Of a DNA stretch of 37,034 bases, positions 1 to 28,688 are shown in pieces. The number at the start of each line of letters is the position of its first letter. Position 1 is the stretch's first letter. Made by a program: the position numbers and the translations under genes. The notes under the pieces were generated by a model. The model was given only the letters and a program-made list of their open reading frames with translations. It searched no databases and was not told the DNA's origin. The stretch comes from a virus: the IMG/VR virus record IMGVR_UViG_3300045747_000133, positions 1 through 37,034 of that record. The stretch is one strand, 5' to 3'.

Positions 1-245
1 TGTTGTTCTGCGTTGTACTTAACCCATGCATCAATCTCTTTGTGGTACTTTGCTTTCCACGCTAAATTCTCTGTATTCAGCATCTTGTTAGCAGTGCATT
101 CAGCGCCAAGGTTTCTGTTTGCGGATTCAATCAGTGCATCCCGCTCCGCGCACACTCGGGCGGCGTAGTTGTGCATTTGGGTGGCGGTGTATCCCGGTAT
201 GTCGCCAAGCCACACAGGATCAGGTAGTTCAGGTTTTGTGGTCAT
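1..245 (-). CDS. Hypothetical phage protein, C-terminus cut off by window edge
   Basis: An open frame starts at an ATG at 245-243 and runs off the left edge after about 81 codons. The start overlaps the stop of the upstream PAPS-reductase-like gene (ATGA), the usual sign of translational coupling in this leftward operon. The visible protein begins MTTKPELPDPVWLGDIPGY and then becomes charged and probably helical (segments such as AARVCAERDALIESANRN), which suggests a coiled coil. No catalytic motif is visible and I do not recognise a function. It is likely an early accessory protein. Confidence 0.6.
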   Translation of the reverse strand, partial: MTTKPELPDPVWLGDIPGYTATQMHNYAARVCAERDALIESANRNLGAECTANKMLNTENLAWKAKYHKEIDAWVKYNAEQ

Positions 246-1192
246 TCACACAATCCATAAAGTGACGAGCAGAGTGGCCCATCGTTTTGCACACGCAGAA
301 AATCGAACTGCTTTCCGCCTCGGCTAGTCTTTGCCCATTCAACCTTTGTTTCGATGGTCTGTTTCATGCTCCATTCAGGGTCATCGGACGGGGCTGCAAA
401 GAATGTCCCGGCCTGGCGCTTGCTGGCCTGCTTGACTGCATCCTCCCATTGGGCGATCCGCTCGATTACTTCTGGGAACCTCTTAGAGATCTCCAGCAGT
501 TCATCCTTGCGGCAGTTGATGCACGGCATGCACCCGACTCGGCCCATTCCCATTTCGTACAGCGGGTTGTGTTTGACGCCATGCTTGCGGTGCATTGCAA
601 AAGCGTCATCTGCTGTCCAGTCCAGAATGGGGCGGTAGTTCCAAAGATACGCGCCGTTTTCGTGCGTGCTTTTCAGTTCCGACTCAATCAGGAAGCGTCG
701 GTTCAGTGATTCGTCACGTCGTACACCCTGCCAGCTACGCACATCGTCCCCAGCTTCAAGTAGCGGGTTTTGCACTTGGTTGATGATGGGGTTTCGCTTC
801 AATTCTTCGCTACAGAATGCGGCCTTCGTAGAGGGAAATCGGCCCTTCCATACGCACAGGTCAAGGAATGGGTTTCCACTGGGTACCAGGGCCGCTGCAG
901 CACGGTCTATTGCAGATTGCGATACACCTTTGTCAGCCCACTTTGTCAGGACGTATTCGCGCTTTCCAGCGATCTGGCGCGTGAAGTCGGCACGCACTGT
1001 GCGGATTGGGAATACGTTGTCATTCAGGTACTGCACATAGTCGTATGTGATCTGGTGTTCGTTGCCAGTATCAGCAAACACGGCACTCATGTTTTCGGTG
1101 TTGCGCTCGATTGCCAACAGCAGCAGTGCTGTGCTGTCCTTACCACCGCTCACGCTGATGATGTTGTGTTCTGCGCGGTCTTGTTGGTCCAT
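242..1192 (-). CDS. PAPS reductase / DndC-like ATP-pyrophosphatase family protein
   Basis: A 316-residue protein of the adenine-nucleotide alpha-hydrolase fold. The PP-loop SGGKDS lies at about residues 15-20. A cysteine cluster GCMPCINCRKDE lies in the C-terminal half and could hold a metal or iron-sulfur cluster. Phage members are usually annotated as phosphoadenosine phosphosulfate reductase; the same fold includes DndC, which acts in DNA phosphorothioation, and tRNA thiolases. The substrate cannot be read from sequence. The ATG at 1192 is preferred because GGGGG lies 7 nt upstream; a GTG at 1195 is possible. The start overlaps the stop of the second frame in the methyltransferase locus (TGATG), so it should be co-translated with it. 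A role in nucleotide or DNA modification is an inference from that neighbour. Confidence 0.85.
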   Translation of the reverse strand: MDQQDRAEHNIISVSGGKDSTALLLLAIERNTENMSAVFADTGNEHQITYDYVQYLNDNVFPIRTVRADFTRQIAGKREYVLTKWADKGVSQSAIDRAAAALVPSGNPFLDLCVWKGRFPSTKAAFCSEELKRNPIINQVQNPLLEAGDDVRSWQGVRRDESLNRRFLIESELKSTHENGAYLWNYRPILDWTADDAFAMHRKHGVKHNPLYEMGMGRVGCMPCINCRKDELLEISKRFPEVIERIAQWEDAVKQASKRQAGTFFAAPSDDPEWSMKQTIETKVEWAKTSRGGKQFDFLRVQNDGPLCSSLYGLCE

Positions 1193-1204
1193 CACATCAC
1201 CCCC
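1192..1204 (-). repeat. 13-nt direct repeat, downstream copy (start signal of PAPS-reductase-like gene)
   Basis: The leftward sequence GGGGGTGATGTGA is identical to the copy at 2086-2098. It contains the ribosome site and the start/stop overlap used by the next gene. Together the two copies bracket the methyltransferase dual-frame cassette. Confidence 0.8.
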
Positions 1205-2085
1205 TTATCGTCCGCCGAGCAGACGCCATGCTGCTGCTGCCACTCTTGGAACTTGGCCGTTTCCAAGGGCTTTAAGTCGGTCCACCCCGAAGGCCACCCC
1301 ATCAACCATTCGACCCACTCCGGGTTCAATCGGCCATCTGTTTTTCCCTCCGATTCCGCAACCTGAGTTATCAACGGTTCCGTCCCCAATGCATTCATAC
1401 TCCGAGACCCCCCCCGAACCGTCCGTGAATCCCTTGCCAATGGAGTCGGCCAATGCCTGGCGCCACGAATCTTCACTGCTTGCGATAGGCGCATCTGTGA
1501 CTTCTCTCCAGTCGGACTTACATGCTTGAACTGGCCTGTTTTTGTCGTGTGGAAACCGTCCGGAACTTTTCGATCTGATGTGTCCGATGCGCTTGGGGTC
1601 GGTAGCGTGTATCCAAATTCGGTTACGCTTGTGCGGTGCTCCAACGTCGGCAGCTCCCAGCACTCCCCATTTTGTGTCATACCCGAGCGCGGCCAGGTCA
1701 CCGAGAACAGTTCCGATTCCCCGAGTAAGCAAAGCTGGACTGTTTTCCACGTAGACGATGATTGGTTGAACTTCGCCAACGATGCGCGCCATGTGAGTCC
1801 ACATTCCTGACTTTGCTCCAGTGATACCGGCGCCTCGTCCTGCAACTGATATGTCCTGGCACGGAAATCCTCCAGCAACAACGTCAGCAACTCCGCGCCA
1901 TGGTTTTCCGTCAAAGGTTTGCACATCATTCCAAATCGGGAATGGCGGGAGACTTCCATCGTTTTGTCGTGCCACAAGCACTGCTTGGGCGTATGGTTCC
2001 AACTCGACTGCACAGACGCATCGGTGTCCAAGCAAATGGCCGGCAAGTATTCCTCCACCAGCGCCTGCGAATAGATGTAGCTCAT
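1192..2085 (-). CDS. Second full-length frame overlapping the cytosine methyltransferase (conserved-looking phage protein)
   Basis: A 297-codon frame, shifted one base from the methyltransferase, starts at an ATG only 4 nt after its GTG start (GTGAATG) and ends 13 nt past its stop. The ATG lies 8 nt after a GGGGG ribosome site, better spacing than the GTG has. The product begins MSYIYSQALVEEY, contains SSSTWKT, TWPRSGMTQNGE, WPTPLARDS, and ends with LNPEWVEWLMGWPSGWTDL. From memory, proteins with this start and this LNPEWVEWLMGWP signature recur in phage genomes, often annotated as hypothetical or as a methyltransferase. No enzyme motif is visible. Whether it is translated, or is only open because of constraint in the other frame, cannot be settled here. 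Confidence 0.6.
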   Translation of the reverse strand: MSYIYSQALVEEYLPAICLDTDASVQSSWNHTPKQCLWHDKTMEVSRHSRFGMMCKPLTENHGAELLTLLLEDFRARTYQLQDEAPVSLEQSQECGLTWRASLAKFNQSSSTWKTVQLCLLGESELFSVTWPRSGMTQNGECWELPTLEHRTSVTEFGYTLPTPSASDTSDRKVPDGFHTTKTGQFKHVSPTGEKSQMRLSQAVKIRGARHWPTPLARDSRTVRGGSRSMNALGTEPLITQVAESEGKTDGRLNPEWVEWLMGWPSGWTDLKPLETAKFQEWQQQHGVCSADDKGVM

Positions 2086-2089
2086 TCAC
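1205..2089 (-). CDS. DNA (cytosine-5) methyltransferase, Dcm family
   Basis: A complete C5-cytosine methyltransferase that would transfer a methyl group from S-adenosylmethionine to cytosine in DNA. Motifs appear in the standard order: FAGAGGG near the N-terminus (SAM binding), GGFPCQDIS with the catalytic cysteine, VENSP, and GAPHKRNRIWI (motif VIII type), then a variable target-recognition stretch and LKALGNGQVP at the C-terminus. With the GTG at 2089 it has 294 residues, short but usual for phage enzymes. The GTG overlaps the stop of the 28-codon gene before it (GTGA); a GTG at 2146 would put 19 extra residues inside that gene and is less likely. No restriction endonuclease gene is visible, so host-restriction evasion or regulation is the likeliest job. 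The same DNA is open in a second frame throughout. Confidence 0.92.
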   Translation of the reverse strand: MNELHLFAGAGGGILAGHLLGHRCVCAVELEPYAQAVLVARQNDGSLPPFPIWNDVQTFDGKPWRGVADVVAGGFPCQDISVAGRGAGITGAKSGMWTHMARIVGEVQPIIVYVENSPALLTRGIGTVLGDLAALGYDTKWGVLGAADVGAPHKRNRIWIHATDPKRIGHIRSKSSGRFPHDKNRPVQACKSDWREVTDAPIASSEDSWRQALADSIGKGFTDGSGGVSEYECIGDGTVDNSGCGIGGKNRWPIEPGVGRMVDGVAFGVDRLKALGNGQVPRVAAAAWRLLGGR

Positions 2090-2098
2090 ATCACCCCC
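2086..2098 (-). repeat. 13-nt direct repeat, upstream copy (start signal of methyltransferase pair)
   Basis: The leftward sequence GGGGGTGATGTGA supplies the ribosome site for both the GTG (2089) of the methyltransferase and the ATG (2085) of the second frame. It also encodes the last codons and stop of the 28-codon gene. It is an exact match to 1192-1204. Confidence 0.8.
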
Positions 2099-2172
2099 AT
2101 CACGCGCATCGCGGAAAGTGCAAGCGAAAGCGCCAGCAGGTAGCACGCAAAATAGAATTTGAAGTCGGTCAT
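2086..2172 (-). CDS. 28-residue hydrophobic microprotein
   Basis: A 28-codon gene with a good ribosome site (AGGAAGA, 3 nt before the ATG). Its start overlaps the stop of the 26-codon gene upstream (ATGA), and its stop overlaps the methyltransferase GTG (GTGA). The peptide runs MTDFKFYFACYLLALSLALS then AMRVMGVM, a single likely membrane helix. No function is recognisable. The tight coupling on both sides and the clear ribosome site are why I call it a gene; its translation may mainly deliver ribosomes to the two methyltransferase-locus frames. Confidence 0.5.
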   Translation of the reverse strand: MTDFKFYFACYLLALSLALSAMRVMGVM

Positions 2173-3350: not shown

Positions 3351-3641
3351 TTATCCCACCCGAGTGAAGGGCTCTGGGTGTGTTGGCGCGGAGGCCAGGC
3401 TTTGGAACTGATTGGCGATGCGCTCAAGCTCAGGCAGCATGAGCGAGGCGTGTATGGGGTCGATGTGAATGGACCTGGCGATGATGCTGCCGTCCCATGT
3501 GATTGCGATGCTCAGGGCTGCTACCGGGTGTTCCGGTTGTGCGGCCTGGCTCAAGAACCATTGGCGGATCCTGCGTATTCTGCTTTGGTCAGGTTTTGGA
3601 TCTGCGTGCAGTGACTCGACTTTCCTGTTTTTCTTTCGCAC
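3351..3641 (-). CDS. Hypothetical protein overlapping the repressor gene
   Basis: A 96-residue protein with a GTG start at 3641, supported by GGAAGG 7 nt upstream. It overlaps the last 53 nt of the repressor gene in another frame, so it is probably co-transcribed with it. The N-terminus is very basic (RKKNRKVESLHADPKPDQSR); the rest has a beta-strand pair and a C-terminal helix (LPELERIANQFQSLAS). No family is recognised. Its position behind the repressor fits an accessory role in immunity, which is only an inference. Confidence 0.55.
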   Translation of the reverse strand: MRKKNRKVESLHADPKPDQSRIRRIRQWFLSQAAQPEHPVAALSIAITWDGSIIARSIHIDPIHASLMLPELERIANQFQSLASAPTHPEPFTRVG

Positions 3642-4125
3642 TTTGTTGCCTTCCCTGGGGCTTTAACTCCACACCAGCCGCTCTTTTAAGGGCTGCAACA
3701 CTTGAGTCCGGCACTTTGCTGATGTGTTCATTTGTATTGTGTTGCGGTGCGTCATTGTGTCTGCGCCGAGTCTGTGCTGCAACCGTCATAAATGCCATTG
3801 CCTGGTGTCTGGTTTCTTCCTTAAGTTTTCTCCAAACCTTGAGCAGTTCCTTTTCTTCGTATGACGCCGGGGCAACGGTGCTTGTTTCGCCGGCCGTCTT
3901 TTCCTTAAGGAGTTCCATCGGATGCACGCCGAATATCTCAGCAAGTTGCTCAACTATGTCCAATGACGTGTGCACTTCGGCACGCAGGATCCGCTGAATT
4001 GACGATTGCGAGAGCGTGAAGTGCAGTGCCAATGCCCGCGCGTGGATCTTCGCTTGCGTGTCAAGGTCTGATCTGTCGTCCTTTAGTGCGCTCAATCTGT
4101 CAGCAAGTATCTGGTTTAGGCGCAT
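3589..4125 (-). CDS. CI-like phage repressor (XRE-type helix-turn-helix)
   Basis: A 178-residue protein with an N-terminal helix-turn-helix domain at about residues 25-75: ARALALHFTLSQSSIQRILR followed by a helix with EIFGVHPMELL, typical of lambda-repressor-like proteins. There is no S24 autoprotease domain; the C-terminus is polar and basic (KPQGRQQSAKEKQESR), so it may be inactivated in some way other than RecA-stimulated cleavage. The ATG at 4125 has GAGGAA 4 nt before it. It diverges from a Cro-like gene with operator-like palindromes between them, so the most likely role is maintaining lysogeny by blocking the early promoters. Confidence 0.8.
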   Translation of the reverse strand: MRLNQILADRLSALKDDRSDLDTQAKIHARALALHFTLSQSSIQRILRAEVHTSLDIVEQLAEIFGVHPMELLKEKTAGETSTVAPASYEEKELLKVWRKLKEETRHQAMAFMTVAAQTRRRHNDAPQHNTNEHISKVPDSSVAALKRAAGVELKPQGRQQSAKEKQESRVTARRSKT

Positions 4126-8078: not shown

Positions 8079-8496
8079 ACCCGGTGAGCTCACGCCAAAG
8101 CAGGCCGCATTCGTGCGGGAGTACCTGATCGACCGCAATGGCACTCAGGCCGCTATCCGCGCGGGCTACAGCGCCAAGACGGCTAAGGTCATTGCCACTG
8201 AGAACTTAACCAAACCTGCCATTATTGAAAAGGTAAGGTTGGCCACTGAAAAACAGTCCGAGCAGACCGGAATAACTACTGATTGGGTTTGGAGAAAACT
8301 CAAAGAGGAAGCAGAGGATTACTCAGAGTTTTCCAGCCATTCCGCCCGTGTAAGGTGCACAGAAATAGCTGCAAAGCTGCTTGGTATGTTCAAAGAGGAC
8401 AACGAACAGAAGGCCACGCCGCTTGTGCAACTGGCCTTGATCCTGCGCCCCAACATCGCCGGACCTGGCACCTTTGCGATACCCGAAGATGACTGA
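8071..8496 (+). CDS. Terminase small subunit
   Basis: A 141-residue protein of the terminase_2 type. LTPKQAAFVREYLIDRNGTQ and AIRAGYSAKTAKVIATENL are the conserved N-terminal helix-turn-helix. Small terminase binds the phage DNA at the packaging site and presents it to the large subunit. The GTG at 8071 is chosen because AAGGAG lies 7 nt upstream; the in-frame ATG codons further up would bring in a low-complexity extension. It overlaps the large subunit gene by 8 nt. Confidence 0.85.
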   Translation: MAKPGELTPKQAAFVREYLIDRNGTQAAIRAGYSAKTAKVIATENLTKPAIIEKVRLATEKQSEQTGITTDWVWRKLKEEAEDYSEFSSHSARVRCTEIAAKLLGMFKEDNEQKATPLVQLALILRPNIAGPGTFAIPEDD

Positions 8497-10075
8497 CGAA
8501 TCAAAAGCCCTGGCCGAGATTGCCGAAAAACTCAACGACCGGATATGGCGCCTAACCTCCGGCAAGCTGTACCAGATCATCGTTAAGGGCAATGAGGACG
8601 ATGATGATGGCCTGGTGATGCCGTTCATCCCTAACAGGGCTCAGCGCCGGTTTATGGCCAGGCTACACAACCGCAATGTGATCTTGAAGGCCCGCCAGCT
8701 TGGCTTTACGACCCTGGCCTCGATCCTTTGGCTGGATACCGCGCTGTTCTCGCAAGACCCAATCCGCTGCGGCATCATTGCCCAGGATAAGGAAACGGCC
8801 GAGTCGATATTCCGCGACAAGGTGAAGTTCGCATACGACCGCCTGCCAGACTTCGTGCGTGAAATGTTCCCGGTCGAAACCTCGAACACCAAGGAAATTG
8901 TGTTCGGCCACAACCACAGCAGCATCCGTGTGGCCACCAGCGTGCGCGGCGGCACCATCCACCGGCTGCACATTTCTGAGTTCGGCAAGATTTGCGCTAA
9001 GTTCCCCGACAAGGCCAAGGAGGTGGTGACCGGCTCCATCCCTGCCGTGCCAAAATCTGGCATGTTGATCATCGAGTCCACTGCCGAAGGCCAGGAAGGC
9101 GAGTTCTACAAAATCAGCCAGCGCGCGCAGGCCTTGTTTGAAAAGAATGCCACGCTCAATGAAAAGGACTACCGGTTTCACTTCTTCGCCTGGTGGGAGG
9201 CTCCAGAGTACGAAATGGACCCAGAAGGCGTGGTGTTCACGCAGGTCTACAACACCTACTTTGCGGACCTTGAGGGCAAGATTGGGCGACCCATCAGCAT
9301 GGAAAAGCGCGCATGGTACGTGTCGACATGCGAATCAGACTTCTCCGGCGACCAGACTGCCATGTGGCAGGAATACCCCAGCACGCCCAAAGAGGCGTTT
9401 CAGGTATCCATTGAGGGTTGCTACTACTCTGCTCAGCTTACCCTGGCGCGCAAGCAGAACAGGGTGCACAAGACAATCCCGCTGGAAGCCGCACCGGTTA
9501 ACACCTTCTGGGACTTGGGCCGCGGCGACATGACAACGGTTTGGTTTCACCAGCGCATCGGCTTAGAAAACCGCTTCATCGGTTACATGGAATGGAGCGG
9601 TGAGGAAATCAAGACGTTTGCCGAGTACCTGCAGGGCCTGGGTTACACCTTCGGCAAGCACTACCTGCCGCATGATGCTGAGTACAAGCGCCTGGGCGAG
9701 ACTCCAGACACCAACTTCTCGCTCAAGGAAATGTTTGAGCGCCAACTACCCGGGCAGACATTTGATGTGGTTCCGCGCGTGACCGCGCTCATATCCGGCA
9801 TCACCAGCACGCGCAACGTGTTCAGTTCCTGCCATTTCAGCGAGGAAGGCTGCGGCATTGGCCTTACCCGCCTGGCAAACTACAAAAAGAAGTGGAACAA
9901 AACCACCGGCTCATGGTCCAGTGAGCATGTGCACGACGACAACAGCCACGGCGCTGACGCCTTCCGCCAGTTCGGCCAGCTTGCAGACACTGGCGAGGCC
10001 TTCAACGCCCGCGGCCTATCGTCCAGCACCGCCAAACTGACCTTCCGCCGCCGAGGAACCCCCATGGGCGTTTGA
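8489..10075 (+). CDS. Terminase large subunit
   Basis: A 528-residue DNA-packaging motor. The ATPase half has a Walker A variant (KARQLGFTT, residues 68-75), a Walker B-like segment RLHISEF (159-165) and coupling motif IESTAEG (195-201). The nuclease half has D342 and D347 in FWDLGRGD and the acidic pair in DDNSHGADAF (D483/D484, D490). It cuts concatemers and pumps DNA into the prohead through the portal. The ATG at 8489 overlaps the small subunit. It lacks the classic GxGKT loop, as is common in this terminase group. Confidence 0.93.
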   Translation: MTDESKALAEIAEKLNDRIWRLTSGKLYQIIVKGNEDDDDGLVMPFIPNRAQRRFMARLHNRNVILKARQLGFTTLASILWLDTALFSQDPIRCGIIAQDKETAESIFRDKVKFAYDRLPDFVREMFPVETSNTKEIVFGHNHSSIRVATSVRGGTIHRLHISEFGKICAKFPDKAKEVVTGSIPAVPKSGMLIIESTAEGQEGEFYKISQRAQALFEKNATLNEKDYRFHFFAWWEAPEYEMDPEGVVFTQVYNTYFADLEGKIGRPISMEKRAWYVSTCESDFSGDQTAMWQEYPSTPKEAFQVSIEGCYYSAQLTLARKQNRVHKTIPLEAAPVNTFWDLGRGDMTTVWFHQRIGLENRFIGYMEWSGEEIKTFAEYLQGLGYTFGKHYLPHDAEYKRLGETPDTNFSLKEMFERQLPGQTFDVVPRVTALISGITSTRNVFSSCHFSEEGCGIGLTRLANYKKKWNKTTGSWSSEHVHDDNSHGADAFRQFGQLADTGEAFNARGLSSSTAKLTFRRRGTPMGV

Positions 10076-10119
10076 CGCACCAAGCATGCGAAAGTCCCAC
10101 GAACTTCTTGGGGCTGGAC

Positions 10120-10551
10120 ATGGGTGTTTCTCTGGATCTTCGTAAGGCGCACGCATCGCACTACCGGGGTGACTTGGTGGTGGTGCTCTCATGGATCAAC
10201 GATCTGCGCGCAATGTTCATCATTCCGCGCTACGCCAAGGGCGCTGCCTGGTTCGTTATCGAGGAGCCGGCCGCTCACTTCTGGCGCGATGACGTTGCAT
10301 CCAACATTTGGAATGCAGCCAAGAAGTCATTGAAGGCCTGCGAAGTGCTGGGCCTTGAGCCAAGCCTAATGAATTCCACCAAGATCATTTCCCTGGTAAA
10401 CAACTTCATACCTGACCTACTGCGCATGCCCAGCGCACCGCCCACCAAGTACATCAATCGTGATTTTGGACAGATGACCATGCGCGAGGGCGGCAAGGTT
10501 TTAGCCCAGCAAGAAATCCGCCTTGAGGACGAGGGCCAAGAGTATGTTTGA
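10120..10551 (+). CDS. Hypothetical protein between terminase and portal
   Basis: A frame open from a TTG at 10072; the ATG at 10120 is preferred because GGGG lies 6 nt upstream, giving 143 residues. The protein has short beta and helical stretches (SHYRGDLVVVLSWINDL, AAWFVIEEPAAHFW, IISLVNNFIPDLLR) but no recognised domain. Its location between terminase and portal suggests a packaging or DNA-end function, or an unrelated accessory gene. The end overlaps the portal start by 8 nt. Confidence 0.6.
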   Translation: MGVSLDLRKAHASHYRGDLVVVLSWINDLRAMFIIPRYAKGAAWFVIEEPAAHFWRDDVASNIWNAAKKSLKACEVLGLEPSLMNSTKIISLVNNFIPDLLRMPSAPPTKYINRDFGQMTMREGGKVLAQQEIRLEDEGQEYV

Positions 10552-13147
10552 TGAAGTGCGATCGGTCCACGGCCGCGCCCCGGGCGATGACTATTTCAGG
10601 CGCCAGGACGAAACCATTGCACAGATTGGCCAAGAGCAGGGCCCGCAAAACCCTGACGACCTGGACAACGAAGCCAACCGCGCGCTGCACAGCAAGCTCC
10701 TATCCTGGTTCTTCATGGAGCGCGAAAAGCAATCCCTGAACCGCATGGAAATGGCCATGGACGCCGATTTCTACGACAACCTGCAGTGGGATCCACAAGA
10801 CAGCCAAGACCTGCGCGACCGCGGGCAGATGCCACTGGTATACAACGAAGTGGCGCCCATGGTTGACTGGCTCATCGGTACCGAGCGCCGCACGCGCGTG
10901 GACTGGAAAGTGCTGCCGCGCGCCGAAGATGACGTAAAGACGGCTGACATTAAGACCAAGGTCTTGAAATATGTGTCGGATGTGAATCGCTCCACATTCG
11001 CCCGCTCTCGCGCCTTCGCTGATGCTGTGAAGGCCGGAGTCGGATGGATTGACTCAGGCGCGCGCGATGACCCAACCAAGGACATTCTTTACAACAAGTT
11101 TGAGGACTGGCGCCGGGTGCTCTATGACTCGGCCAGCACGGAGCTTGACCTGAGCGATGCGCGTTTCATATTCCGGTGGGCATGGGTGGATGAGGATATT
11201 GCCGTGCTGATGTACCCAGAGCGCGCCAACCAGATCCGCATGTCCGTGGAAAAGACCAACCACAACCGTGACATTTCCTGGGAAGAAGAAAACTGGCAGA
11301 GCCAGAACACCCTGCAGTCGCGCCACCAGGGCCAGCTTTATGCGTCCGGCACCGGTGTGACCATCAACACCAAGCGCCGCCAAGTCAAGATCATCGAGGC
11401 GCAGTACCGCATGCCGGTGGTGACCAAGGTCATCAAGTCCGGTCCGCTCAAGGGCTCAATCCTGCACCCGGGCGATACACCGCTGCAAAACGCACTGCAG
11501 CAAGTGGGTGGATCTGTTGTAGATCGCCTGATCATGCGCTTGCACCATGCCGTGATGACCGAGGCGGACCTGCTTTCTGTTGAGCCATCAATCTACCGGC
11601 ACAACCGTTTCAGCCTGACGCCCATTTGGTGCTATCGCCGCAGCCGGGACCGCTTGCCATACGGCGCAATCCGCCGCGTGCGCGATGTACAGCAAGACCT
11701 GAACAAGCGCGCCAGCAAAGCGCTATTCATGCTCAACACCAATCAGATCATTGCTGACGAGGGCGCGGTGGACGATTGGGAGTTGGCCCGGGACGAAGCC
11801 GACCGCCCGGACGGTTTGATCGTCAAGAAGGCCGGCAAGCAGTTTGACATTCGCCGGGACACCGATGCGGCAACCGGCCAACTGCAGATGATGGCCATGG
11901 ATGCCCAGGCCATTCAAAAGTCTGCCGGCGTGGCTCAGGAAAACATGGGGCGCCAGACCAACGCCGTGAGCGGTGAAGCCATCAAGGCGCGCCAGACTCA
12001 GGGCAGTGTGGTAACGACCGAGCCCTTCGACAACCTGCGCCTGGCCACGCAGATCGACGGCGAGAACCAGCTTTCCCTGTGTGAGCAGTTCTACACCGAG
12101 GACAAGGTTATCCGCCTGACCGGTGCCAAGGGTGCCATCGAGTGGGTGAAGGTGAATCAGCCCGAGCAGCAGGCAGACGGATCCATTCGGTACATCAACG
12201 ACATTACCAACAGCATGGCTGATTTTGTGGTGTCCGAGCAGGACTACGCCGGCACGCTGCGCCAGGTGATGTTTGAGAGCCTGAACCAGCTTGCTACGCG
12301 CCTTCCTCCAGAGGTAAGCCTGCGCATCATGACGATTGCCATGGAGTTCTCGGACCTGCCAAATAAGGACGAGATAGCCGACGCGCTGCGCAAGATGACC
12401 GGCGACCGTGACCCAACCAAGGAAATGAGCCCGGAAGAACAGCAGCAGGCCCAGGCCCAGGCCCAGCAGCAGGCCGAAGCCATGCAGATGCAGCGCGAGA
12501 CTGCCATGAATGCGCTGGCCGAGCAGCAGGCCAAGGTACGCCAGATAAACGCCCAGGCTGCGAAGCTGGAGGCCGAAGCCATGGCAGCAGGGCAGGGCGG
12601 TATGGATCCTGAAATTCAATCGCAGATCCAGCAGATCCAGAGCCAGGCCGCAGACCAGATTGATGCGCTCACCCAGCAGCTAACCAAAGCACAGTACGAG
12701 CTCACCAACCGCACGCTGCAGATCAACCGCGATGCCGATACCAAGATGGAATTGGCCAACATCGACCGGGATACCAAGCTGCAGGTAGCTGAGATTCAGG
12801 CTGCAAGCGATAAGAAGGTCGACGCCCTTACCCAATCCATGGCCGACCTGGTGCGCCAGATTGAAGATGCCAACAAGGCCGCGGCCGAGGCGCGCAAAGT
12901 GGCTGATGAAGCGACCAAGCGCGCCGAAAAGATCGAAAAGATGCCGCCACCTGCTGCGCCGCCCCCCGCTCCAGCGCCAGCAGCCCCCGCACCGGCCCCG
13001 GCGCCTGCCGCTCCGACCGTAATCAATGTGACTGTGGATGCCAAGTCAGAGCCTGGTACCAAGTCAATCACCCTGGAAAAGGATTCGGCCGGGAATATCA
13101 CCGGCGCGAAGGTCAATGAATCAACCAAGAAAGCCACTAAGAAATGA
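10544..13147 (+). CDS. Portal protein, P22-like, with long coiled-coil C-terminus
   Basis: An 867-residue protein. The first 600 residues resemble P22-type portals (DNLQWDPQDSQDL, MPLVYNEVAPMVDWLIGTER, RRVRDVQQDLNKRASKALFM). From about residue 627 it changes to a Gln/Ala-rich coiled coil (QQAQAQAQQQAEAMQMQ), then a Pro/Ala stretch (about 800-825) and a short beta tail INVTVDAKSEPG. The dodecameric portal forms the DNA channel and attaches the tail; the C-terminal coil probably forms the barrel that extends into the capsid. The start at 10544 is favoured over a TTG at 10523. Confidence 0.88.
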   Translation: MFDEVRSVHGRAPGDDYFRRQDETIAQIGQEQGPQNPDDLDNEANRALHSKLLSWFFMEREKQSLNRMEMAMDADFYDNLQWDPQDSQDLRDRGQMPLVYNEVAPMVDWLIGTERRTRVDWKVLPRAEDDVKTADIKTKVLKYVSDVNRSTFARSRAFADAVKAGVGWIDSGARDDPTKDILYNKFEDWRRVLYDSASTELDLSDARFIFRWAWVDEDIAVLMYPERANQIRMSVEKTNHNRDISWEEENWQSQNTLQSRHQGQLYASGTGVTINTKRRQVKIIEAQYRMPVVTKVIKSGPLKGSILHPGDTPLQNALQQVGGSVVDRLIMRLHHAVMTEADLLSVEPSIYRHNRFSLTPIWCYRRSRDRLPYGAIRRVRDVQQDLNKRASKALFMLNTNQIIADEGAVDDWELARDEADRPDGLIVKKAGKQFDIRRDTDAATGQLQMMAMDAQAIQKSAGVAQENMGRQTNAVSGEAIKARQTQGSVVTTEPFDNLRLATQIDGENQLSLCEQFYTEDKVIRLTGAKGAIEWVKVNQPEQQADGSIRYINDITNSMADFVVSEQDYAGTLRQVMFESLNQLATRLPPEVSLRIMTIAMEFSDLPNKDEIADALRKMTGDRDPTKEMSPEEQQQAQAQAQQQAEAMQMQRETAMNALAEQQAKVRQINAQAAKLEAEAMAAGQGGMDPEIQSQIQQIQSQAADQIDALTQQLTKAQYELTNRTLQINRDADTKMELANIDRDTKLQVAEIQAASDKKVDALTQSMADLVRQIEDANKAAAEARKVADEATKRAEKIEKMPPPAAPPPAPAPAAPAPAPAPAAPTVINVTVDAKSEPGTKSITLEKDSAGNITGAKVNESTKKATKK

Positions 13148-24877: not shown

Positions 24878-26686
24878 ATGAGCCACTACCGCACAGGAAC
24901 GATTGCGCTAACGAACGGGTCAGCCGCAGTCGTCGGCACCGGTACTGACTTTATCAATGGCGCAGCCATTGGCGAGTGCGTGCAGGCACCAGATGGCAAG
25001 CTGTACGAGATTCTGACCATTGCATCTGCAACGTCGCTCACGCTTGGCTCGGTTTACCTGGGTGCTACTGCATCCGGCCAGGCCTATTCAATCGTTCCGA
25101 CGCAGAGCTATATCCGGGAGTTGGCCGCGCAGGCTGCTGCCCTAGTGAACAGCTATTCCAGCATCCTGACCACTGCGCTTACAACAGCGGCAACTGCGAA
25201 GGCAACACCGATTGACGCTGACAGCATTGGCTTGAAGGACAGTGTTACCGGGTTTGCTCGGCTGCTGACCTGGGCGAATCTGAAGGCAACGATTGTTTCG
25301 TACTTTCAGAGCGTCGGGCTTAACAGCACAGCCATCGGCTCCACCACCCCATCGACAGGCGCGTTTACTACGCTGAGTGCGAGTGGCCTGCTAACAGGAA
25401 ACTCTGCTCAATTCACTGGTGCAGCTTCACCAGCAAGTGGCAGCGGCACGGAAGTTTTCTACTCCGGTGGCAGTGGTTATGTGCAGTCGTATAACCGCAC
25501 AGGGTCTGCATACACGCCGCTGTTTTTGACTGGCTCAACGATCAACCTGTACCCAAATGGCGCATCAATTGGTGCGGCTGTAGTCTCATCCAACGGCCTA
25601 GCCGTGACAGGTGCTATATCAGGAACGACAAACCTACTGCTGAACGGAGCAACGTCTACGGTTGCATTCGGAGCGAGTTCTACTGAGCAAATTTATCGAA
25701 GTGGCACTACGCTTAACTTAATGACCAACTCGGTCACGCAAGCCACCCTAGACGCTAATGGCAACTTTGGGGTAAAAGCCACTCCACATACAGGATGGAC
25801 TCCAGCGAATGCTTGCTTTATTGCCCTTGGAGGATTGGGCGGAAATGGATTGGTTGGAACAGGGGCGGGCTCAACTGCGCCGTCTATCTCCCTTGTTACA
25901 AACGGGTACTACAACGTAGGATGGAAATACCACTCAAGCAGTTCACAGACCGGAGCGGGACTTTACAACATAGAAAACGGTTCGCATAGATGGTACATAG
26001 ACAACGGAACTCCAACTGCGGGTAACACTATTCCCGGCTTTGCAACTCCGTTAATGACGCTGAATGATAGTGGGGTGCTTGATGTAGGCGGTGGAACAGG
26101 CGGAGGGGCTTTTATTAACCCAAGCAACGGTATAACTGGGCAAACGCAGCTACAAGTGACACATAGTGCTGCATCAACATCTGGGTCTGCTTTTCAAGTA
26201 TTTGTCTATAACGCAGGGATCATCGGCTCCATCACCCAATCCGGCACAACAGCAGTCGCCTACAACACCACATCCGACCACCGCCTGAAAACCAACGTAC
26301 GCGATGCCAACGCAGCACGGTTCATGGATATCCAGTTCCGTGACTTCGAGTGGATTGACGGTCGCCATGACTGCGGTGTGATCGCCCACGAGTTTCAATT
26401 GGTCTACCCTGACTTGGTTCTTGGCGATAAGGATGCGACAGAGGTTCGCACCGTAGAGATCACCCCTGCTGTGCCTGCGGTGCTTGATGCAGAAGGCGTG
26501 GAAGTCACTCCCGCAGTTGCATCGGTCACAGAGCAGCAGACATTCCCGGTCTATCAGCAAGTCAACTATATGGGACTGATCGGGCGCATGGGTACTCGGG
26601 TGCAATCGTTGCAGCGCACTGTTGATGCACAGGCCGCAATGATCGAAGCCCTCGCAGCACGCCTCACCGCAGCAGGTATCGCATGA
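24878..26686 (+). CDS. Tail fibre with S74 intramolecular chaperone domain
   Basis: A 602-residue host-recognition protein. The N-terminus (HYRTGTIALTNGSAAVVGTG) is the particle-binding end; the middle is Thr/Ser/Gly-rich beta structure. At about residue 465 the motif TSDHRLKTNV opens an S74 chaperone domain, with catalytic Ser466 and Lys471, followed by FEWIDGRHDCGVIAHEFQ and a C-terminal coiled coil (RVQSLQRTVDAQAAMIEALA). The chaperone assembles the trimer and then cuts itself off. The receptor-binding middle (about 25600-26250) looks richer in A/T than its flanks, suggesting exchange with other phages. Confidence 0.85.
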   Translation: MSHYRTGTIALTNGSAAVVGTGTDFINGAAIGECVQAPDGKLYEILTIASATSLTLGSVYLGATASGQAYSIVPTQSYIRELAAQAAALVNSYSSILTTALTTAATAKATPIDADSIGLKDSVTGFARLLTWANLKATIVSYFQSVGLNSTAIGSTTPSTGAFTTLSASGLLTGNSAQFTGAASPASGSGTEVFYSGGSGYVQSYNRTGSAYTPLFLTGSTINLYPNGASIGAAVVSSNGLAVTGAISGTTNLLLNGATSTVAFGASSTEQIYRSGTTLNLMTNSVTQATLDANGNFGVKATPHTGWTPANACFIALGGLGGNGLVGTGAGSTAPSISLVTNGYYNVGWKYHSSSSQTGAGLYNIENGSHRWYIDNGTPTAGNTIPGFATPLMTLNDSGVLDVGGGTGGGAFINPSNGITGQTQLQVTHSAASTSGSAFQVFVYNAGIIGSITQSGTTAVAYNTTSDHRLKTNVRDANAARFMDIQFRDFEWIDGRHDCGVIAHEFQLVYPDLVLGDKDATEVRTVEITPAVPAVLDAEGVEVTPAVASVTEQQTFPVYQQVNYMGLIGRMGTRVQSLQRTVDAQAAMIEALAARLTAAGIA

Positions 26687-27072
26687 ACCTCGACCCAATC
26701 GACGGTTACCCAACCACGCGCTTCGTGTGGCGAGCCATCGTCATCTACCTGATCGTTGTCTCGCTGTGCTTCGTCGGCTTCATAGCGCAAGCAGTGGCTC
26801 AGGAAGTAGAGCAACCCATCATCGAAAGCCCAACCACTTTTGCCATTTGCAAGGCCGCAGACATAGCCACGACAGCCTACATCCTAGGCAACGGTGGTGT
26901 TGAGCTAAACCCTATCGTCGCGTGGACTCTGAAGGCCGGGTATGCCCCGCTGATCGTCGTAAGCCTCGGCATCTGGCTGGCCATGAAGCACTACGGGACA
27001 CCCGCCGGCAACACCGTCATAAATGTCGCAACCTGCGGCGTAGCTATTCACAACTTGGTGCAAATACCGTGA
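26683..27072 (+). CDS. Small membrane protein after the tail fibre
   Basis: A 129-residue protein overlapping the fibre stop (ATGA). It has an N-terminal hydrophobic helix (AIVIYLIVVSLCFVGFIA), a DIATTAYILGNGGVELNPIV segment as in DUF5658-like membrane proteins, and two further hydrophobic stretches. It is probably an inner-membrane protein. An accessory role such as superinfection exclusion is possible but not shown by the sequence. Confidence 0.55.
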   Translation: MNLDPIDGYPTTRFVWRAIVIYLIVVSLCFVGFIAQAVAQEVEQPIIESPTTFAICKAADIATTAYILGNGGVELNPIVAWTLKAGYAPLIVVSLGIWLAMKHYGTPAGNTVINVATCGVAIHNLVQIP

Positions 27073-28688
27073 GCGTCATTCGCTTTACCGGATTCGTCGG
27101 CGCCAATAGGGCGGTGCATCCAATGCTGCTCGGCGATTCGGTAGGCGTCACAAGCCTTAACCAGAAGCCCGGTCGCTCTGATCTTCGCCCATGGAATGCG
27201 CCGCTCAACAAGGCGACGGTGCCGGCCAGCCGCAAGACCATTCACCGTATGGGCCGGGATGTGGCAAGCGACACACAATACTGGCTGAGTTGGCCAACAA
27301 CCGTACATGCCGTGCTTGGAGGAAATGCTGCCGACACATCAGAGCGCACCTACTACACCGGTGACGGCGCGCCGAAGTGGACGGACACAACAAAGGCCCT
27401 GGCTGCAGCACCGTACCCAACTGCTTCGCGCACGCTTGGCATTCCGGCACCTTCTGGTGCCATTTCACTGTCCGCTGCAGGCGGTACTAGCGCGACGGTA
27501 GAAACCCGCTTCTATCTGGACACCTTTGTGTCCGACATTGGCGAAGAAAGCGCACCAAACCCTGCGCCTGTGAGCATCACTTGCAAGCAAGACGACACGG
27601 TAACCATCAGCACACTGCCTGCAGCACCTGGTGGGTCATACGGCATTACGCTGCGCCGCATCTACCGCACGCAAGACGGCTTGACCACGGCCGGGGCGTT
27701 TTACTTTCTGCGCGAGATTGCATCGGGCCTTACTAGCACCACGGATGACAACCGCACGCTTGGCGAGACTCTAGCGACAACCTCATGGCTAACGCCACCG
27801 ACCGACCTAAAGTGCCTCACCGGCCTATGGAACGGGATGATGGCCGGTATCTCTGGCCGGTCCCTGCGGTTCTGCGAGGCGTACACCTACTACGCCTGGC
27901 CAATCGAGTATGAAATCATCCCGGCTAACACCATGCCGGTGGCCCTGGCAACGTTCGGGCAGACCCTGGTGATGCTGACTGACGGCAACCCATCGGTTGT
28001 CGTTGGCGGATCGCCGGACGCGATGGACGAATCCCCGGTAGCCTTTGACCAATCCTGCGTTTCTGTGCTGTCCGCAGTAGGCATGGGTCATGGTGTGGCC
28101 TGGGCCTCTCCTGACGGCCTGGCTTATATCGGATCGTCCGGCCCACGCCTGCTCACTGACGGCTTGATGACGCGCGACGACTGGCAGGCACTGGTACCGA
28201 GCACGATTGAAGCCGCCATGTATGAGCGCCGCTACATCGCCACGTACAACGATGGCACTGGCCGAAAGGGGTTTGTGATCGACCCGGCCAACCCGGACGG
28301 CATCTACTTTCTGGACTTCGGTTTCGATGCCATGCATGTTGACGCGCTACAGGATGCTCTGTTTGTGCTGGATGGCGTGAATGTCCAGAAGTGGGATGCC
28401 GGTACCGCGCTGACTACCACCTTCAAATCAAAGTTGTTCCACCAAAGCAAGCCGACGCCATCGTTTGCTTGCGCCCAGGTGACCGGTGGGCACTCTGTTG
28501 GCACCCCGGCCATGTTCAAGCTGTACGTCGATGGCGCATTGATCCACACGGAGAGCGTTACCAGCAGCGAACCATTCCGCTTGCCGGCCGGGTACCTCGG
28601 GGTTGACTTCCAGATCGAGGTAACCACCACCACCAACATCCAGGCTGTGGCCATGGCCCACTCAATGCGTGAATTGGCCCAGACATGA
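27069..28688 (+). CDS. Large tail protein (podovirus tail-tube/knob type)
   Basis: A 539-residue protein with a GTG start at 27069 in a GTGA overlap. It has beta-propeller-like segments (FGQTLVMLTDGNPSVVVGG, VAWASPDGLAYIGSSGPRLL, IATYNDGTGRKGFVIDP) similar to the tubular tail proteins of short-tailed phages. Likely the nozzle or knob of the tail. The longer open frame to 26922 overlaps the membrane protein and is rejected. Confidence 0.6.
   Translation: MSVIRFTGFVGANRAVHPMLLGDSVGVTSLNQKPGRSDLRPWNAPLNKATVPASRKTIHRMGRDVASDTQYWLSWPTTVHAVLGGNAADTSERTYYTGDGAPKWTDTTKALAAAPYPTASRTLGIPAPSGAISLSAAGGTSATVETRFYLDTFVSDIGEESAPNPAPVSITCKQDDTVTISTLPAAPGGSYGITLRRIYRTQDGLTTAGAFYFLREIASGLTSTTDDNRTLGETLATTSWLTPPTDLKCLTGLWNGMMAGISGRSLRFCEAYTYYAWPIEYEIIPANTMPVALATFGQTLVMLTDGNPSVVVGGSPDAMDESPVAFDQSCVSVLSAVGMGHGVAWASPDGLAYIGSSGPRLLTDGLMTRDDWQALVPSTIEAAMYERRYIATYNDGTGRKGFVIDPANPDGIYFLDFGFDAMHVDALQDALFVLDGVNVQKWDAGTALTTTFKSKLFHQSKPTPSFACAQVTGGHSVGTPAMFKLYVDGALIHTESVTSSEPFRLPAGYLGVDFQIEVTTTTNIQAVAMAHSMRELAQT

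Follow-up and report, generated by a model that had tools for sequence, protein, structure and literature searches.

One C5-cytosine DNA methyltransferase is probably encoded as two polypeptides in two overlapping frames of a phage genome

What does a second, fully open reading frame encode when it lies over a recognizable DNA methyltransferase gene, and is it a gene at all? The question arises from a viral sequence of 37,034 nucleotides (the window), in which two frames of the minus strand, alpha and beta, overlap almost totally. A preliminary description of this DNA had placed their starts 4 nt and their stops 13 nt apart with both frames open, and the coordinates agree with it. We conclude that one C5-cytosine DNA methyltransferase is very probably encoded by this single stretch as two polypeptides, alpha and beta. 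The features to which we refer are the following.

1205..2089, minus strand: alpha gene, catalytic polypeptide of the C5-cytosine methyltransferase; GTG start at 2089, 294 aa.
2054..2071, minus strand: alpha motif I (FAGAGG), SAM binding; invariant columns in alignment A2.
1856..1873, minus strand: alpha motif IV (GGFPCQ) with the catalytic Cys77; invariant columns in alignment A2.
1739..1747, minus strand: alpha motif VI (ENS); alignment A2.
1613..1627, minus strand: alpha motif VIII (RxRxW); alignment A2.
1304..1537, minus strand: alpha residues 185-262, unconserved and predicted to be disordered, at the place that the recognition domain and motif IX occupy in other C5 methyltransferases; pLDDT <50, with 86-92% of alpha changes non-synonymous over codons 162-262.
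1247..1264, minus strand: alpha motif X (GNGQVP), in DNA whose other frame encodes the end of beta; alignment A2.
1192..2085, minus strand: beta gene, frame +1 relative to alpha; ATG start at 2085, 297 aa; probable recognition domain and motif IX.
1951..2085, minus strand: N-terminal extension of beta, residues 1-45, open in the window's clade only; 0 stops versus 61.6 expected.
1336..1698, minus strand: candidate recognition-domain segment of beta, residues ~130-250; from the beta profile against single-chain phage methyltransferases, where it falls between motifs VIII and X.
1282..1332, minus strand: beta motif IX, RLNPEWVEWLMGWPSGW; aligned to GRLSPIFVEWMMGWPNGW of the single-chain relative L281.
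2083..2099, minus strand: shared initiation junction GGGGGTGATGTGAATG; its TGA overlaps the alpha GTG and abuts the beta ATG.
1190..1204, minus strand: junction GGGGGTGATGTGATG, read from the sequence; here the stop of beta and the first codon of the following gene overlap.
242..1195, minus strand: next gene, a PAPS-reductase-family protein whose start overlaps the beta stop; Pfam PAPS_reduct 6.3e-23, PHROG 424.

Elsewhere in the window, genes for a terminase large subunit, a portal protein (PHROG 156), a tail fibre and an internal virion protein (PHROG 511) lie on the plus strand at 8474-13147 and 24878-28688. Judging from this structural gene set, the window is a podovirus-like phage, and a repressor-like gene at 3589-4125 on the minus strand suggests that it is temperate.

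Alpha had been called a textbook C5 methyltransferase, which is true of one part of the enzyme. Motifs I, IV (PCQ), VI (ENV/ENS), VIII and X, by which C5-cytosine methyltransferases are recognized, are present in one catalytic domain. The protein matches PHROG 363, and M.HhaI is the top PDB structural match of its AlphaFold2 model. In the usual single-chain form the recognition domain and motif IX lie within the same chain as motifs I-VIII and X; here, they are absent from alpha and are found in the beta frame. The match to the Pfam model DNA_methylase (PF00145; E 5.6e-31) covers only residues 3-188 and stops at profile position 183 of 324. Hardly any residue is conserved in alignment A2 between motif VIII and motif X. 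The AlphaFold2 model comprises a confident large domain, including the motif X helix, and a disordered segment at residues 185-262.

Beta appears to be the recognition-domain and motif IX part of this same enzyme. It matches PHROG 1008, named "DNA methyltransferase" (E 4.4e-29), as do all 54 family members; against the Pfam and NCBIfam models, it has no match. The C-terminal end is strongly conserved in the family, and the columns N254, P255, E259, M262, G263, and P265 are conserved at 90% or more. Some relatives (L259, L262, L264, and L281) encode the enzyme as a single chain. The alpha profile aligns to L281 at residues 6-163 and 350-378, the beta profile at residues 228-354, and the other single chains show the same alpha/beta/alpha order. 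Because the beta profile falls between both alpha matches in these single chains, beta would provide the recognition segment and the motif IX that alpha is missing. Modelled alone, beta has a mean pLDDT of 52, and comparison with the PDB returned nothing usable, by fold (Foldseek) or by profile; hence, the assignment of the recognition domain rests on sequence homology to the single-chain relatives. The preliminary description had taken the second frame for a separate phage family. This is not supported, since the homologous segment lies within the one chain of these relatives, and their homology also rules out an unrelated second protein.

Could beta nevertheless be translated to act separately, for example as an overprinted regulator or inhibitor, with alpha an active methyltransferase by itself? 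Such a role would suit beta residues ~90-130, which matched nothing in the single-chain relatives that were examined, but we consider it improbable: the conserved C-terminal half of beta is homologous to the very recognition/motif IX segment that is absent from alpha, the corresponding alpha segment (185-262) is unconserved and disordered, and a second family, whose beta is shorter, shows the same two-frame division. Programmed frameshifting is another way to use both frames. A ribosome that left the alpha frame for the beta frame once past motif VIII, and returned to it for motif X, would produce a single chain in the usual order of motifs I-VIII, recognition domain, IX, and X. This is hard to credit, because two opposite shifts would be needed for each protein, and because the conserved beta ATG, 4 nt past the alpha start, and the depletion of stops in beta codons 1-45 would both be left unexplained. 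Furthermore, the poly-G tract carried by relatives (see below) precedes motifs V-VIII and is absent from the window.

The reading of alpha and beta as two subunits of one enzyme also depends on the +1 frame being a gene. We gathered 80 viral loci with the alpha protein as the sole query, so that the selection was blind to beta; a scan of genome contigs gave two loci only. The alpha-picked set was found partly via the peptide MNELHLFA, and since the search patterns are degenerate, codon choice in the set was free. In the null model, synonymous codons were permuted within each alpha gene, which preserves the alpha protein and its codon usage. The window alone has 0 stops in the +1 frame versus 3.9 expected (P ~0.001), and its third frame has 14. 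In nearly all of the 80 loci the +1 frame is open from alpha codon 2 to near the end of alpha; their +2 frame has 5-21 stops per gene. Frequent second-frame stops in homologues, which the preliminary description had named as evidence against dual coding, were searched for and are not there: 74 unique genes (the window and its alpha-chosen viral homologues) have 1 stop versus 291 expected. Region by region, the stops observed/expected are 0/38.8, 1/43.5, 2/112.7, and 5/78.7 among 69 representatives with <75% nucleotide identity. In the control families, those parts of the gene in which beta is not coded show little or no depletion (117 versus 104.2 and 30 versus 45.9); the first of these values is that of the S-H1-type family for beta codons 1-45, where the window's clade has 0 versus 61.6 expected. 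The openness of the second frame is not chance: although the composition of alpha somewhat reduces stop density, and the window alone expects few stops, an open frame without a gene, produced by codon bias and by the amino-acid constraint of alpha, has a negligible probability and is ruled out, as far as sequence statistics reach, by the permutation and the control families.

The start of beta is conserved too. Its ATG derives from AAT-GAG at alpha codons 2-3, fixed in 98 of 106 genes. At these codons, the representatives have AAT:AAC and GAG:GAA ratios of 63:0 and 63:0, compared with 226:325 and 312:633 elsewhere; AAC and GAA are thus the commoner choices in the rest of these genes and yet are absent here. 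Some loci (L004, L007, L019, L022, L025, L028, and L081) have no ATG at +4, and their alpha begins with xRE, not MNE. Their beta may have a GTG start or an internal start, the frame being still open from the first codons. Two loci without a G tract, L062 (codon 143) and L003 (~codon 225), show a beta-frame stop or a late shift of both frames; these rare cases could be true decay or assembly errors.

The rates at the three codon positions, computed from 49 independent pairs, differ along the gene. In codons 1-120, differences concentrate at alpha third positions, whereas in codons 162-262 the fastest position is the first of alpha, i.e., the third of beta. Given this shift in the fastest position, beyond motif VIII it is beta, no longer alpha, that is under the stronger constraint. 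In codons 162-262, 86-92% of the alpha changes are non-synonymous, versus 71-78% for beta, and at motif X both proteins are constrained. Where a change is silent in alpha, the replacement that it causes in beta tends to be milder than expected (z 3.5 for codons 90-150 and z 3.0 beyond 150). The same measure gives z 7.5 for codons 90-150 in the S-H1-type family and z -1.2 to -0.2 in the mycobacteriophage-type control. For beta residues 1-90 the amino-acid constraint is weak (z 2.4 and 1.4), so we claim only openness for this part, which may be a passively open leader. Silent-site rates were also compared with those of the control families, a comparison made ambiguous by divergence levels that differ between families. 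With the depletion of stops, the conserved start, and the shifts in codon-position rates, across more than 100 viral loci, the conserved dual-coding locus first suggested from the window alone is strongly supported.

How could two proteins be started from almost the same place? In the window, GGGGGTGATGTGAATGAG comprises a purine-rich stretch resembling a ribosome-binding site, the alpha GTG, an overlapping TGA, and, directly after it, the beta ATG. Ribosomes would initiate at the GTG and, 4 nt on, at the ATG, using one initiation region, and beta initiation could occur through termination-reinitiation at the intervening TGA. A 28-codon ORF, MTDFKFYFACYLLALSLALSAMRVMGVM (2086-2172, minus strand), encodes a small membrane-like peptide and ends on this TGA. 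Among 98 relatives, 39 have the junction TGA as the stop of their longest upstream ORF. The junction GGGGGTGATGTGATG, between the beta stop and the PAPS-reductase-family gene, has nearly the same sequence as that at the alpha and beta starts, and this would be the pattern expected of a translated beta in an operon. Frame 0 would then yield the catalytic large domain, with motifs I-VIII and X and a dispensable linker in mid-chain, and frame +1 a protein whose N-terminal part lies opposite the catalytic motifs of the other frame and is followed by the recognition domain and motif IX. Once both are made, the two proteins would bind each other and form one methylating enzyme, whose subunit proportion could be maintained by the shared initiation. 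The putative enzyme may shield phage DNA from host restriction, or mark it.

Methyltransferases split in this manner have precedents. In 1995, Lee, Kam and Shaw reportedly found the small polypeptide of M.EcoHK31I to be coded inside the large gene, in another frame, a layout in which the window resembles it. That beta is short, about 176 aa, whereas the beta of the window is full length, starts 4 nt after alpha, and overlaps it almost completely. The window also resembles M.EcoHK31I (YGGCCR) in having motif IX on the second polypeptide (RLNPEWVEWLMGWP) and motif X (GNGQVP) on alpha, a likeness that we judged from descriptions, by motif distribution and coding layout. It differs in that the predicted recognition domain of M.EcoHK31I is described as part of its large subunit, a domain which in the window appears to be on beta. 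M.AquI and M.EcoHK31I are established two-polypeptide C5 methyltransferases, the latter with motifs I-VIII and X on the large polypeptide and motif IX alone on the small one (PMC3404938). M.AquI (CYCGRG) is likewise divided between two polypeptides (PMC3404938), but its motif X is on the small subunit, and the window, with motif X on alpha, is not of the M.AquI kind. The mycobacteriophage pairs Firecracker gp6/gp5 and Phanphagia gp65/gp66 are also of the AquI type: their genes overlap in part, and motif X is in the second protein.

The S-H1 type (Synechococcus phage S-H1; L139-L218) has a nested beta, with motif IX in the +1 frame and motif X in the alpha frame. However, the first ~45 codons of its beta frame carry stops (117 versus 104 expected in codons 1-45, then 2/47.6 and 1/175.8), so its beta must start internally. 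PHROG 363 (alpha) and PHROG 1008 (beta) are catalogued phage families, both named DNA methyltransferase, but they are two separate families, and the model descriptions are silent on shared DNA. The relatives form a graded series: single-chain enzymes, partly overlapping AquI-like pairs, nested genes with an internal beta start, and the window type, with starts 4 nt apart; the direction of change along it is one that we infer. The best explanation is that this is an enzyme of the known M.EcoHK31I/M.AquI kind, in which the beta start has been shifted to 4 nt after that of alpha, which is new here. The near-complete overlap and the recognition segment on beta also set it apart. We found no direct report of overlapping phage methyltransferase genes, or of phage poly-G methyltransferases, in the open-access literature that was searched.

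Many relatives (loci L018, L020, L029, L032, L034, L035, L041, L107, L114, L116, L118, L123, and L299-L378) have a run of 9-17 G just after motif IV, absent from the window. A scan found the tract at this site in at least 120 viral contigs. Among the 75 classifiable of 79 distinct loci, it is in phase in 50, plus one in 13, and minus one in 12, i.e., 25/75 are out of phase. A single G, and with it the phase, separates close relatives: L299 (G9) and L345 (G10) at 96% identity, L307 (G11) and L319 (G10) at 96%, and L020 (G12) and L035 (G13) at 98%. The tract-bearing contigs contain 87 G/C runs of 9 or more in 689 kb; since about one per contig is the site itself, by selection, just a handful of long runs lie elsewhere. 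Relatives whose choice did not depend on the tract include 17 that have it, 3 of them with a broken alpha frame, and 97 that lack it, none with a broken alpha frame (Fisher test, p 0.003). Homopolymer assembly errors could be behind part of the differences in tract length. In our judgement the chances are even that, in many relatives, the dual-coded methyltransferase is a phase-variable on/off switch that acts by poly-G slippage. A tract one G shorter would fuse the start of alpha to the end of beta, and one G longer the start of beta to the end of alpha, so either shift would turn both proteins off in one step. As they share DNA, both subunits would switch together.

These findings have consequences for annotation and for the study of gene origins. 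INPHARED records (e.g., Pseudomonas phage phPA-G, Vibrio phage 1.236.O, and Acinetobacter phage ABMM1) annotate one frame of the two, in some cases beta, as a hypothetical protein, and in others alpha, as a methyltransferase. The gap is systematic, as most public records hold a single frame, and hence the enzyme is usually half annotated. The locus would be a clear example from nature of a single enzyme with its two domains superimposed in different frames of the same DNA. Its many diverged homologues, and relatives that range from a single chain through partial to full overlap, open the origin of overlapping genes to direct testing. The poly-G tract seen in relatives would bring in, besides, a modification system that is phase-variable and carried by phages; if this is true, phages bear an on/off DNA-modification gene in which both subunits are switched jointly.
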